DNA of 36,656 bases from Candidatus Peribacter sp. Its GTDB lineage: Bacteria; Patescibacteriota; Gracilibacteria; Peribacterales; Peribacteraceae. Made by a program: the position numbers and the translations under genes. The notes beneath the pieces were generated by a model. That model ran no database searches. It was given only the letters and a program-made list of their open reading frames with translations, and had not been told where the DNA came from. Positions 18,745 to 22,584 of this stretch are shown here, in pieces (positions within the stretch are counted from its first letter, which is position 1; each line of letters begins with the position of its first letter). Location of the stretch: contig JAUSKD010000006.1 of assembly GCA_030647195.1 (NCBI GenBank), positions 1-36,656 on the forward strand, written 5' to 3'.

Positions 18745-19848
18745 TTATGCGATCGTGACCTCCCTGCACAGATACACATCTTGGATGGCGTGCAGGAGCT
18801 CCACTCCTTCATCCATGGGCTTCTGAAAGGCCTTGCGACCCGAAATGAGCCCCGTGCCACCGGCGCGCTTGTTGATCACCGCGGTCTTCACGGCCTGCGC
18901 CAGATCGTCCTTGCCCGAGGCGCCACCCGAATTGATAAGGCCGATGCGGCCCATGTAGCAGTTGGCCACCTGCCAGCGTGTGAGATCGATGGGGTGATCG
19001 GTGCTGAGGGTCGTGTACATCCGCTCGTCGGACTTTCCATATTTTCCTTCCGGGCTCATGGCTTTATAGCCGCCGTTACATTCCGGCAGCTTCTGCTTGA
19101 TGATGTCGGCCTCCAGCGTGACTCCCAAATGGTTCGCTTGTCCCGTCAGGTCCGCGGAGGTGTGATAGTCCACCCCGCGAAGCCCGGAGGGCGAAGTGGG
19201 GTCCTTCGCATCCTTCTTGAAGTCCTTGTTCCGGAGGTAGCACCACAGCACGGTGAACATGCCGAGGTCATGCGCCTTCGAAAACGCCTGTCCCACTTCC
19301 ACGATTTGCCTGCGCGATTCGGGTGACCCGAAGTAAATGGTGGCGCCCACTCCCGCCGCGCCCATGTTGTGCGCCTCCTCAATGGTGCCGAACATCACCT
19401 GGTCGAAGGCGTTGGGGTAGGTCAGGAGCTCGTTATGATTGATCTTCACGATGAAGGGGATTTTGTCCGCATACTTCTTCGCCACGATCCCGAGCACGCC
19501 GAAGGTGGAGGCAACCGCGTTGCAACCGCCATCCATAGCCAATTTCACGATGTTCTCCGGGTCGAAGTAGTCTGGGTTTTTGGCGAAGCTGGCCCCCGCC
19601 GAGTGCTCGATGCCCTGATCCACCGGCAGGATGCTCAGGTAACCGGTGCCCCCCAGTCTGCCGTGCTCATAGAGCTCCTGCAGGTGCTTCACGGTTTCCT
19701 TGGGCCGGTCCGAAATGCCGAAAATATCCTTCACATGCGTGGGGCTGGGAAGGTGCAGGCGATTCTTGGTGATTCCTTTGCAGGTGTAGTTGAGAAGCGA
19801 GTCGGCTTCGGAACCGAGGAGTTTTCTAATGTCGGCGGTGGTCATCAT
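18745..19848 (-). CDS. fructose-bisphosphate aldolase, class I (FbaB/DhnA type)
   Basis: A 367-residue class I (Schiff-base) aldolase that cleaves fructose 1,6-bisphosphate to the two triose phosphates in glycolysis. It resembles the FbaB/DhnA family rather than the class II metal enzyme: [15 protein letters not shown] near the N-terminus, [16 protein letters not shown] (with the probable Schiff-base region further on), [13 protein letters not shown], and C-terminal phosphate-binding [15 protein letters not shown] followed by GLISGRKAF. Two adjacent ATGs (19848 and 19845) are possible. It diverges from csrA, whose product often regulates glycolysis in other bacteria. The upstream region is very AT-rich and holds the csrA promoter on the other strand. 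No other glycolytic gene is adjacent. Confidence 0.92.
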
Positions 19849-19893
19849 GCGAAGGAAGGGGATAAGTGGGCGAATCCTACCATTGACAAGTAC

Positions 19894-19922
19894 TTGATTT
19901 ATTATGAATTTTATTACATAAT
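19894..19922 (+). promoter_or_regulatory. sigma-70-type promoter for the csrA locus
   Basis: TTGATT (19894-19899), a 17-bp spacer, and CATAAT (19917-19922). It predicts a start near 19929 and a leader of about 117 nt with several GGA motifs, the core of CsrA-binding sites. Confidence 0.5.
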
Positions 19923-20045
19923 GCCAGTTACGTTCCGTTCCTTTCCTTGGGCGCAATGGATGTGCCAACGCGGTCCCGCACTGCGTGACTCAAGAGGGAA
20001 GTGACTCTACGGAGCGATGCTCTTTCCACGGAAGGAGGTTAGGAC

Positions 20046-20363
20046 ATGCTTGTCCTCACCCGTTCTCTCCACCAAGTGATCCTGATCGGGGACAACATTG
20101 AAGTCGCCCCCGATCGGATCGGCACGAAGGTTGTTCGGTTCTCTGTCCGGGCATCGGGATATCCCGTTGCCCGAGGCGAATGCCCCTCTGCGGGTGATGC
20201 CTCAAAGGACGGGGTTCTCATCCTCGCACGTAAGTGCGGGGAGAAGATCCTCATCGGTGGCGACATCATCGTCACTCTGCTGAAGATCCAGGGCAATCGC
20301 GTGAAGGTGGGCGTCACCGCTCCTCCCACGGTAGTTATTCTCCGGGATGAGCTGGCGGCGTAA
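20046..20363 (+). CDS. tandem (fused double) CsrA-type RNA-binding protein
   Basis: A 105-residue protein made of two CsrA-like halves. The second half (about 57-105) is well conserved: VLILARKCGEKILIGGDIIV, then GNRVKVGVTAPPTVVILRDE, with the RNA-contact Arg at R100, equal to R44 of E. coli CsrA, and L60 equal to L4. The first half (1-49) starts with the canonical MLVLTR and IGDNIEV, continues VVRFSVRASG and ends PVARGE; it is more divergent but keeps an Arg at the end. CsrA normally works as a swapped homodimer that binds GGA motifs in mRNA leaders, so the fusion may be a built-in pseudo-dimer. A strong AAGGAGG lies 7 nt before the ATG. A strong terminator follows at 20392-20428, and a single-domain csrA lies downstream. 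Confidence 0.82.
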   Translation: MLVLTRSLHQVILIGDNIEVAPDRIGTKVVRFSVRASGYPVARGECPSAGDASKDGVLILARKCGEKILIGGDIIVTLLKIQGNRVKVGVTAPPTVVILRDELAA

Positions 20364-20368
20364 GAGCA

Positions 20369-20389
20369 GGCCACTGGAATTCGGTGGCC
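20369..20389 (+). other. hairpin with GGA in its loop after the double csrA
   Basis: GGCCAC and GTGGCC arms around TGGAATTCG. A GGA in a hairpin loop is the usual CsrA-binding arrangement, so feedback binding in the 3' region is possible. Confidence 0.4.
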
Positions 20390-20391
20390 AT

Positions 20392-20428
20392 CCCTGCAGT
20401 GACGGCGACGTTGCTGCAGGGTTTTTTT
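20392..20428 (+). terminator. rho-independent terminator of the double csrA
   Basis: CCCTGCAG (20392-20399) and CTGCAGGG (20414-20421) arms followed by seven T residues. Confidence 0.88.
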
Positions 20429-20458
20429 AGTATTTTCGACGAAAGTGAAGATTCTTTG

Positions 20459-20572
20459 TTATGTTCTCTATAGAGGCCAGATTCGTCTGGTCTCGCCCGT
20501 CATCCGGCTCACTTGTCGTGAGTCGGACCCCGGCAGGAAGGGACCTTGCCCTCCCTCTCCTGCCGGCTTTTC
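20459..20572 (+). ncRNA. candidate structured RNA between the two csrA genes
   Basis: This non-coding stretch folds by eye into three hairpins: CCAGA-TTCG-TCTGG (20477-20490, a UUCG tetraloop), CTCAC-TTGTC-GTGAG (20508-20522) and a terminator-like stem CCGGCAGGA/TCCTGCCGG (20530-20566) followed by CTTTTC. GGA motifs occur in and next to the last two. It begins after a strong terminator and ends before the csrA leader, so it may be a separate small RNA (perhaps a CsrA-sequestering RNA) or part of the second csrA leader. No known RNA family was recognised. Confidence 0.35.
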
Positions 20573-20753
20573 ATGGCCTTTTGCTTCACTTTACGGGGTG
20601 GTACGAGTACCTTCCCGGCTCTCTTAAAGGTTTTCTTTAAGGGATCGCTCTGTGGCAAATTCGGTTTCGTCGGGACAACCGATTTCCCCCGTCAAAAGAT
20701 GTATCCGTAGAGGAGATCAGTTGTCCCGATGTTTTCTCAGGAGGATTGTTCCC
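20573..20753 (+). promoter_or_regulatory. structured leader of the single-domain csrA
   Basis: It contains the inverted repeat CTTAAAG/CTTTAAG near 20623-20641 and a perfect 10-bp long-range stem TCGGGACAAC (20670-20679) with GTTGTCCCGA (20720-20729), the latter followed by TGTTTTC. The loop carries an AGAGGAGA (GGA) motif, and the Shine-Dalgarno AGGAGG at 20739-20744 is itself a CsrA-type site. Autoregulation or attenuation is plausible. Confidence 0.5.
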
Positions 20754-21005
20754 ATGCTGGTGCTCTCCCGAAAGAAGAACGAGAGCATCGTCATCAACGA
20801 CGACATTACGATCGTCGTGGTCGAGATCCGCGGGGACAAGGTACGACTTGGGGTGGAGGCCCCAAAAGAGGTACCTGTCCACCGTCGTGAGGTCTTCGAC
20901 GCCATTCGTCGCAATGAAGGGGCGGCTGGCGAGAAGACCGGCGACGGATCCACCGAGGATCCAACCGATGGCGATGCCGCTGCCAGTTCTTCTGAACAGC
21001 CGTAA
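20754..21005 (+). CDS. csrA: carbon storage regulator CsrA (single domain with acidic tail)
   Basis: An 83-residue CsrA. Residues 1-55 follow the classical pattern MLVLSRKKNESIVINDDITI, then VRLGVEAPKEVPVHRREV, including L4 and the RNA-contacting R44. CsrA binds GGA-containing hairpins in leaders and blocks ribosome access or alters mRNA stability. The C-terminal 28 residues are an added Gly/Asp/Glu/Ser-rich, probably disordered tail (GDGSTEDPTDGDAAASSSEQ), unusual for the family. ATG 20754 is supported by AGGAGG 9 nt upstream. It lies downstream of the fused double CsrA gene with its own structured leader, and is followed by a terminator. Confidence 0.92.
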   Translation: MLVLSRKKNESIVINDDITIVVVEIRGDKVRLGVEAPKEVPVHRREVFDAIRRNEGAAGEKTGDGSTEDPTDGDAAASSSEQP

Positions 21006-21035
21006 CCCAATGGGTTACCTACTGTCACTGAGTAA

Positions 21036-21067
21036 GGCCCAATGCATTCGTGCACTGGGCCTTCTCT
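21036..21067 (+). terminator. terminator after csrA
   Basis: GGCCCA...TGGGCC stem continued by TGCA-TTCG-TGCA (UUCG loop), followed by TTCTCTTC. Confidence 0.7.
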
Positions 21068-21099
21068 TCATATGCGTGTGTCACTGCTATGCTGTGCCC

Positions 21100-22584
21100 A
21101 TGGCCGACAAAACTGCATCTTCGCTCCGGCTCTACAACACGCTCACCAAGCGTGAGGAGGAGTTCACATCCATCACGCCCGGCAAAGTGCTGATGTACAC
21201 CTGCGGGCCCACGGTCTACGGGCGGCCGCACATCGGCAACTACGCCTCTTTCCTCATGGCCGACCTGCTCCGGCGCTGGCTGGAGGTGAGCGGTTACGAG
21301 GTGATCCATGCCAAGAACATCACCGACGTCGGGCATCTGCTCCACGACAGAGATCAGGGTGACGACAAGATCGAAAAGCAGGCGAAGAAGGAGCGGCTCG
21401 ATCCGCTCGAGATCGCGCGCAAGTACGAGGCGCAGTTTCTGGAAGATGAGAAGGCGCTCAACATTCTGGAGCCTTTTGCGCGGCCCCGCGCCACCGAGAC
21501 CGTCAAAGAGATGCTCGCGATGGTGCGCGTTCTGCTCGAAAAGGGCTTTGCCTACGAAACGGAGGACGGTATCTACTTCGCAGTCGAGAAGTTCCCCGCA
21601 TACGGCGCGCTCTCGGGCAACACGATCGAGGACCTGTGCGCCGGCATGCGTATCGAGGAGCGCGAGGGCAAGCACTGCAGCGCGGACTTTGCGCTCTGGA
21701 AGAAGTGCGTGGGCGAGAATGCGCCGCACCTGCTTCGGTGGAAGTACGAGACGGGCGAGCGAGTCTATACCGAGGGCGATGATGCCGGGGCCGGATTTCC
21801 GGGGTGGCACATCGAATGCTCAGCCATGAGCCGCAAGTTCCTCGCCGACCAGATCGACATTCACACAGGCGGCGAAGACAACATCTTTCCGCACCATGAG
21901 TGCGAGATTGCGCAGAGTGAGGCCAGTAGCGGCCGAAAACCCTTCGTTCGCACGTGGGTCCATCGTCGTCGCATCCAGATGGGGGAGGAGAAAATGAGTA
22001 AGAGCCTTGGCAACGTGTTAAGTTTGCCTGACGTGATTGCACAGGGTTTCAGCCCTTTGGACCTGCGGTACTACCTCCTTTCCGTTCATTACCGGACGAA
22101 TTTGAAGTTCACGGACAAAGGTTTGGATGATGCGAAGAAGGCGCGGCGGAAGATTATGGAGTGGATGACGGAAGTAGGAGGTATGGAAGGTAAGGTAAGT
22201 AAGGTAGGTAAGGAAGGTGAGGAAAACATGATCGAACCGTGGAAGGAGAAATTTTTTGCAGTGATGAATAACGATCTGAATACACCCGCCGCTCTCGGCA
22301 TTATTTTCGATCTCATGACGTGGTCACGAAACCAGTCTCAGTGGAGCAGTGGTGCGCTGGCAGCACTGAAGGTGCTGTCAGAACAGATCCGTCACACCTT
22401 CGGCTGCTTCGATGCGGAAGGGGAGTTGGATCTGCCCGCCGACGTTCTCACGCTCCTCACCAAGCGTGATGAAGCAAGGAAGTCGAAGGACTTCCATCGC
22501 TCCGATGAATTGCGCGCGGAAATATTGAAGAAGGGATATGAAGTGAAGGATACGGCGGAGGGCCAGCATGTGAGGAAGGCATAG
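21100..22584 (+). CDS. cysS: cysteinyl-tRNA synthetase
   Basis: A 494-residue class I synthetase that charges tRNA-Cys. It shows LYNTLTKREEEF, the Zn-site Cys in VLMYTCGPTVYG, the HIGH motif as PHIGNYASF, KNITDVGH, the WHIECSAMS and HHECEIAQSE zinc-site segments, and the KMSKS loop in EEKMSKSLGN. The C-terminal helical domain has FFAVMNNDLNTPAAL and LTKRDEARKSKDFHRSDELR. ATG 21100 is chosen because the family N-terminus begins there; the frame extends upstream into the csrA gene in another phase. An in-frame 9-nt repeat (about 22180-22215) encodes a short linker (MEGKVSKVGKEGEEN) in the helical domain not expected in the family. Confidence 0.96.
   Translation: MADKTASSLRLYNTLTKREEEFTSITPGKVLMYTCGPTVYGRPHIGNYASFLMADLLRRWLEVSGYEVIHAKNITDVGHLLHDRDQGDDKIEKQAKKERLDPLEIARKYEAQFLEDEKALNILEPFARPRATETVKEMLAMVRVLLEKGFAYETEDGIYFAVEKFPAYGALSGNTIEDLCAGMRIEEREGKHCSADFALWKKCVGENAPHLLRWKYETGERVYTEGDDAGAGFPGWHIECSAMSRKFLADQIDIHTGGEDNIFPHHECEIAQSEASSGRKPFVRTWVHRRRIQMGEEKMSKSLGNVLSLPDVIAQGFSPLDLRYYLLSVHYRTNLKFTDKGLDDAKKARRKIMEWMTEVGGMEGKVSKVGKEGEENMIEPWKEKFFAVMNNDLNTPAALGIIFDLMTWSRNQSQWSSGALAALKVLSEQIRHTFGCFDAEGELDLPADVLTLLTKRDEARKSKDFHRSDELRAEILKKGYEVKDTAEGQHVRKA

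Follow-up and report, generated by a model that had tools for sequence, protein, structure and literature searches.

A protein with two CsrA domains and its conserved structured leader RNA in Candidatus Peribacter sp. and related bacteria

Introduction

The CsrA/RsmA family (PF02599) consists of domain-swapped homodimers, e.g. Escherichia coli CsrA and Pseudomonas RsmA/RsmE. Strands β1 and β5 are exchanged between the two protomers (β5A-β2B-β3B-β4B-β1A; PMC3791407), and each RNA-binding surface consists of a β1 and a β5 strand that run parallel and come from different monomers, L4 and R44 being its critical residues (PMC7652899). In this study we describe a gene that encodes two CsrA domains in a single chain (double csrA, encoding the double CsrA protein), located in a 36,656-nucleotide (nt) stretch of DNA of Candidatus Peribacter sp. 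(assembly GCA_030647195.1, contig JAUSKD010000006.1, positions 1 to 36,656; hereafter the window). Taking the evidence on protein and mRNA jointly, we propose, with a probability of roughly 0.55, that the double CsrA is a single-chain CsrA pseudo-dimer with one canonical and one altered site, which binds GGA hairpins and its own leader.

As in the CsrA/RsmA homodimers, both halves of the double CsrA match the family profile and keep L4, R6 and R44 or their equivalents. It differs from them in that two unequal domains share one chain, the first half has a shortened hinge, and no C-terminal helix or tail is predicted after either half. Judging from its sequence, the double CsrA may also be likened to RsmN/RsmF of Pseudomonas aeruginosa, a CsrA relative whose chain topology is rearranged while the RNA-binding surface is kept (PMC3791407). 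However, RsmN contains a 16-residue helical insert between β2 and β3 and is a homodimer of one-domain chains (PMC3791407), whereas the double CsrA carries a duplicated domain and lacks an insert of this type between β2 and β3 in both halves. A further parallel is provided by CsrA dimers engineered to carry R44A at a single site (Mercante et al. 2009, cited after PMC7652899). These resemble the double CsrA in having one good and one impaired (here predicted) RNA site per dimer; they are, however, two-chain laboratory constructs, while the double CsrA is natural, covalently linked and retains R43. Finally, the leader of the double csrA gene is similar to the CsrA-repressed leader of the glgC type, with an upstream hairpin exposing GGA in its loop and a GGA at the Shine-Dalgarno sequence (PMC7652899). 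In contrast to glgC, the hairpin sits in a conserved three-way junction, the Shine-Dalgarno sequence is itself placed in a hairpin, and the binding is a prediction.

Two CsrA domains in one chain

The open reading frame (ORF) of the double csrA gene (20046-20363, + strand) starts with ATG, is preceded by the Shine-Dalgarno sequence GGAAGGAGG (20030-20038) and encodes a protein of 105 amino acids. Based on Pfam matches, orthologues, selection and a structural model, this protein may be divided into an N-terminal half (residues 1-45), a linker (46-56) and a C-terminal half (57-105). An earlier note, made from the sequence alone, had recognized two CsrA-like halves in this chain, and profile searches confirmed it. 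When scanned singly against Pfam CsrA (PF02599; cut-off 27 bits), the N-terminal half scored 32.1 bits (expectation value, E, 1.1e-7) and the C-terminal half 61.0 bits (E 1.1e-16); both are above the cut-off, so the matches are not due to chance. The whole chain barely exceeds the thresholds of the NCBIfam CsrA equivalogs (73.3 vs 73 and 71.6 vs 70.1). The protein is thus a member of the CsrA family at the domain level, which departs from the standard architecture of one domain in a chain of about 60 residues by carrying two domains in 105 residues. The codon opening the second half is GTT, and therefore this half is not separately startable at that codon.

RNA-contact residues and predicted fold

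The residues corresponding to the RNA contacts of CsrA (L4, R6 and R44 or equivalents) are present in both halves: L4, R6 and R43 in the first (R43 aligns with R44 across a gap in the hinge) and L60, R62 and R100 in the second. The "terminal Arg" which the earlier note ascribed to the first half is in fact R43; it is not terminal, and it replaces R44 following a one-residue deletion in the β4-β5 hinge. The same note assigned R100 and L60 to the R44 and L4 positions. Both residues are indeed kept in the C-terminal half, but they do not belong to one RNA site, since the swapped topology of CsrA combines L4 and R6 with R100 (site A), and L60 and R62 with R43 (site B). In the window protein site A would be canonical and site B altered. 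The deviations at the latter are A61 instead of S/T, S37 instead of P, and the shortened hinge. Judging from the topology, the linker, which joins β5 of the first half to β1 of the second, would also pass beside site B. In the double CsrA of another genome (G012), four contact residues have been lost, every one of them from site B, with site A spared; such a confinement of losses to one composite site is as predicted by a strand-swapped pseudo-dimer.

An AlphaFold2 model built with 26 sequences (predicted local distance difference test, pLDDT, 79.5; predicted template modelling score, pTM, 0.74) contains CsrA strands in both halves. In a structure search, solved CsrA chains aligned to the C-terminal half, while RsmN chains spanned both halves; non-CsrA matches (e.g. 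3u2g, Z 7.1) were at the background level and were set aside. The model and the fold matches support, although not decisively, the presence of two CsrA-like strand sets. A built-in pseudo-dimer, which the earlier note had suggested as possibly asymmetric and which is probably so, is the best reading of the two halves, and the model lends it some support.

Alternatively, the halves might not pack together and strands would be exchanged between molecules, which would result in larger assemblies or in mixed dimers with the ordinary CsrA. Partner exchange is possible for domain-swapped folds, R43 and L58 are separated by a short linker of about 13 residues, and the model is indecisive. Nevertheless, we regard this arrangement as quite unlikely, given the pTM of 0.74 for the whole chain as a single unit, the occurrence of double CsrA proteins in genomes where no ordinary csrA was found, and the concentration of the G012 losses in one composite site.

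Conservation and selection

Orthologues of the double CsrA, 95, 84 and 83% identical, with the same linker and an unbroken frame, were identified in three more genomes of the genus (g1); none was found in the fifth. Pairwise comparisons revealed nonsynonymous (dN) vs synonymous (dS) divergence of 0.03-0.15 vs 0.10-1.05 for the N-terminal half, and of 0.04-0.18 vs 0.14-1.07 for the C-terminal half, i.e. dN/dS <1 in each. The variable sites fall mostly in the third codon position (positions 1/2/3: 12/6/24 in the N-terminal half and 13/8/28 in the C-terminal half). Purifying selection acts on both halves. The core of the neighbouring csrA is nearly invariant in the same comparison.

The double csrA gene is equipped with candidate transcription signals of its own. 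A consensus scan identified a promoter-like site (TTGATT-17-CATAAT; 19894-19922, + strand), kept in the four genomes of the genus, and a hairpin followed by a T-run, resembling an intrinsic terminator, is predicted 3′ of the gene (20392-20421, + strand) and kept in the alignment. Together with the Shine-Dalgarno sequence, these signals indicate that the gene is probably a separate unit. The fused frame could in principle be an assembly artefact or a decaying, functionless csrA duplicate, given that csrA arrays are frequent at this locus and that the first half is divergent. This explanation, whose probability is negligible, is already contradicted by the same linker in four genomes, the dN/dS values of both halves, and the conservation of the promoter-like site, leader and terminator.

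Leader RNA of the double csrA gene

The double csrA gene is preceded by a structured leader (19926-20050, + strand), recognized by folding, covariation and homologues in a second genus. Folding of positions 19929-20048 (about 120 nt) revealed a three-way junction followed by a hairpin that sequesters the Shine-Dalgarno sequence. The junction is composed of (i) helix P1 (19931-19948 paired with 19994-20016), (ii) hairpin P2 (19950-19966; GGCGCA-AUGGA-UGUGCC), whose loop contains GGA, a probable CsrA-type site, and (iii) hairpin P3 (19968-19986), with the loop CCCGC in all six leaders identified. The fourth element, P4 (20020-20037), pairs with the Shine-Dalgarno sequence.

A covariance model built from the four g1 leaders was searched over 74 whole genomes of the order. 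Its only matches were the four g1 leaders and a single site in each of the g8 genomes G014 and G012. Both of the latter matches lie directly upstream of a double csrA gene, though there the gene is located on the other side of csrA. When folded independently, the G014 and G012 leaders adopted the same three-way junction followed by a Shine-Dalgarno hairpin; the minimum-energy fold of the G054 leader deviates in the outer helices. In the alignment of the six leaders, 96.8% of the cells pair, and both partners are altered in 15 of the 38 pairs. None of 500 shuffles performed as well, and slid controls gave at most 5 compensated pairs. The alignment was fitted to the covariance model, but the slid controls and the separately folded sequences argue against a resulting artefact. 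P1, P2 and P3 are backed by covariation, and P4, with zero compensated pairs, by folding alone. A rebuilt model, searched over 353 genomes of the class, recovered the same six leaders and three marginal matches (E 0.006-0.07). When the leader was sought next to the double csrA of G468, G058, G061 and G071, it was not found. In Rfam no family reached the gathering score, and the two matches obtained, which lay on the opposite strand, were at chance level.

The GGA of the P2 loop is unpaired in all six leaders. The loop region reads CAAUGGAUG in g1 and CAGGAUG in the two g8 leaders, the latter being the CsrB repeat, i.e. a CsrA site of the CsrB type (PMC7652899). The expected number of GGA hairpins as strong as P2 in 117 nt is 0.14. 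Since the loop GGA, located in a hairpin near the Shine-Dalgarno sequence, is conserved, takes this form in g8 and has a low chance expectation, the mRNA of the double CsrA resembles a CsrA target. The leader might instead be another kind of switch, e.g. an RNA that senses temperature or a ligand and opens P4, with an incidental GGA in P2. Pairing of the Shine-Dalgarno sequence in P4 and the invariant P3 loop, both seen in 6/6 leaders, would fit such a switch, as would the absence of an Rfam family at the gathering score and a junction that is elaborate for a CsrA site. We nonetheless consider it unlikely, because the P2 GGA stays unpaired throughout while its stem varies, CAGGAUG appears in the second genus, and such a hairpin is seldom expected by chance.

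Distribution and locus arrangement

A search for tandem CsrA proteins in related genomes, as the earlier note had proposed, was productive. Double CsrA proteins are encoded in 9 of the 74 genomes of the order, representing five genera (G000, G051, G053 and G054 of g1; G012 and G014 of g8; G058; G061; and G071, which has two such genes), and in a tenth genome, G468, belonging to a different family of the same phylum. The G468 gene (L102, 1319-1648) has the same hinge deletion in the N-terminal half as the window gene and gave no match to the leader model. This one-residue deletion in the β4-β5 hinge is shared by the window type, g8 and G468, and occurs in none of 63 single CsrA domains. The resolution of a tree of CsrA domains (49 columns) is too low to count fusion events or to decide on a single origin of the deletion.

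Among 353 genomes of the class, CsrA above the Pfam cut-off is limited to Peribacteraceae. The usual place of csrA in this family is between the genes for class I fructose-bisphosphate aldolase and cysS (18745-22584 in the window, and related loci), and several loci hold two or three csrA genes in an array, which suggests that the double csrA arose by gene duplication followed by fusion. Searches of phages and plasmids yielded partial-query matches only, none of which covers 80% of the double CsrA; in IMG/VR the double query had no match, and no tandem frame was present among 80 CsrA loci. No match to FliW was obtained in the 74 genomes of the order, including that of the window, while positive controls were detected; a CsrA-FliW flagellin switch was consequently rejected. 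No description of chains with two CsrA domains, tandem CsrA or CsrA of Peribacteria was found in the literature searched, subscription journals being outside its scope. The architecture may already be listed in sequence databases; taken alone, the fusion is moderately new, and more weight lies on the leader conserved with it.

An ordinary csrA gene (20754-21005, + strand; 83 amino acids; Pfam CsrA, 90 bits) adjoins the double csrA in the window, in agreement with the earlier note, and 7 of the 10 carrier genomes contain both types. In the remaining three (G058, G071 and G468), which are drafts of 90-96% completeness, no ordinary csrA was found, and the double CsrA can therefore probably act without it. 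This bears on the idea that the double CsrA is an anti-CsrA, unable to bridge two sites, which either competes for RNA with the neighbouring CsrA or swaps strands with it. Such a role would fit a protein with one canonical and one altered site that mostly coexists with ordinary CsrA, and engineered one-site CsrA dimers repress glgC incompletely (PMC7652899). It is less easily reconciled with the three genomes mentioned above, and the double proteins of G058, G061 and G071 retain L4, R6 and R44 or close substitutes at both sites. We thus rate an anti-CsrA role as rather improbable.

Proposed mechanism

In the single-chain pseudo-dimer that we favour, the two halves would pack like the protomers of one CsrA dimer. 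Strand β1 of the first half and β5 of the second would form a canonical site (L4, R6, R100), while β1 of the second half together with β5 of the first would form an altered site (L60, R62, R43). Binding at the latter would probably be weaker or different, given the short linker alongside it and the lack of one residue in the hinge of the N-terminal half. The double CsrA may bind GGA hairpins, very likely including the one in the leader of its own mRNA. There, the P2 GGA loop would be taken by the canonical site, and either the altered site or another molecule of the protein would act at the Shine-Dalgarno sequence in P4. The outcome would be feedback control of its own translation, and such autoregulation is likely, being the simplest reading of the leader. 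The folded pseudo-dimer, its RNA binding, and the autoregulation and its sign are what we infer; the two CsrA halves, the selection acting on them, their recurrence and the covarying leader fold are what the analysis shows. A more specific version is a self-contained asymmetric switch, in which the P2 GGA loop would be held by the intact site and the Shine-Dalgarno hairpin would be the target of the diverged one, the protein-RNA pair being kept across two genera; we put it forward tentatively, with the odds somewhat against it.

Several observations weigh against the pseudo-dimer and its proposed target. The site bias was seen in a single genome, G012, and is not shared by the G468 protein or by the first of the two G071 proteins. 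The structure prediction mentioned in the earlier note yielded CsrA strands in both halves of the monomer, but a second AlphaFold2 run, on three sequences only, was poor (pLDDT 54.6), and the C-terminal half superimposes on a CsrA chain with 2.4-2.8 Å over about 50 residues only. As regards the RNA, the P2 loop of g1 is longer than the consensus obtained by systematic evolution of ligands by exponential enrichment (SELEX). The Shine-Dalgarno sequence is already hidden in P4 in every leader, and so the control could go either way in sign. It is also possible that the leader is regulated by the neighbouring CsrA.

Other RNA and CsrA-like elements

A second structured RNA (20473-20566; model span 20450-20587), with three hairpins followed by a T-run, is located between the double csrA and csrA. 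It contains 6 compensated pairs among 4 sequences, is restricted to the four genomes of the genus that carry a double csrA, and has no Rfam match. It may be a small RNA or a csrA leader. A role as a CsrA sponge was rejected, since GGA is not conserved.

Other Peribacteraceae encode CsrA relatives with inserts near β1-β2 (L082 of G009, 1788-2138; L081 of G010, 2213-2410; L098 of G056, 1369-1704), placed differently from the RsmN insert; the G009 protein is over the Pfam cut-off. Locus L070 of G061 contains a frame of 123 codons (1782-2150) with a CsrA match of 25.3 bits, just below the cut-off, and a second, very weak match. It is possibly a decayed additional double csrA.

Significance

Whether CsrA needs two equal sites has so far been asked with engineered dimers, and natural single chains with unequal halves allow a direct test of this question and can serve as ready-made constructs. 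The leader RNA provides a defined target and a candidate Csr circuit in Peribacteraceae, in whose order FliW was not found. If the self-contained switch proves true, it would represent a protein-RNA pair kept across two genera of such bacteria with tiny genomes.
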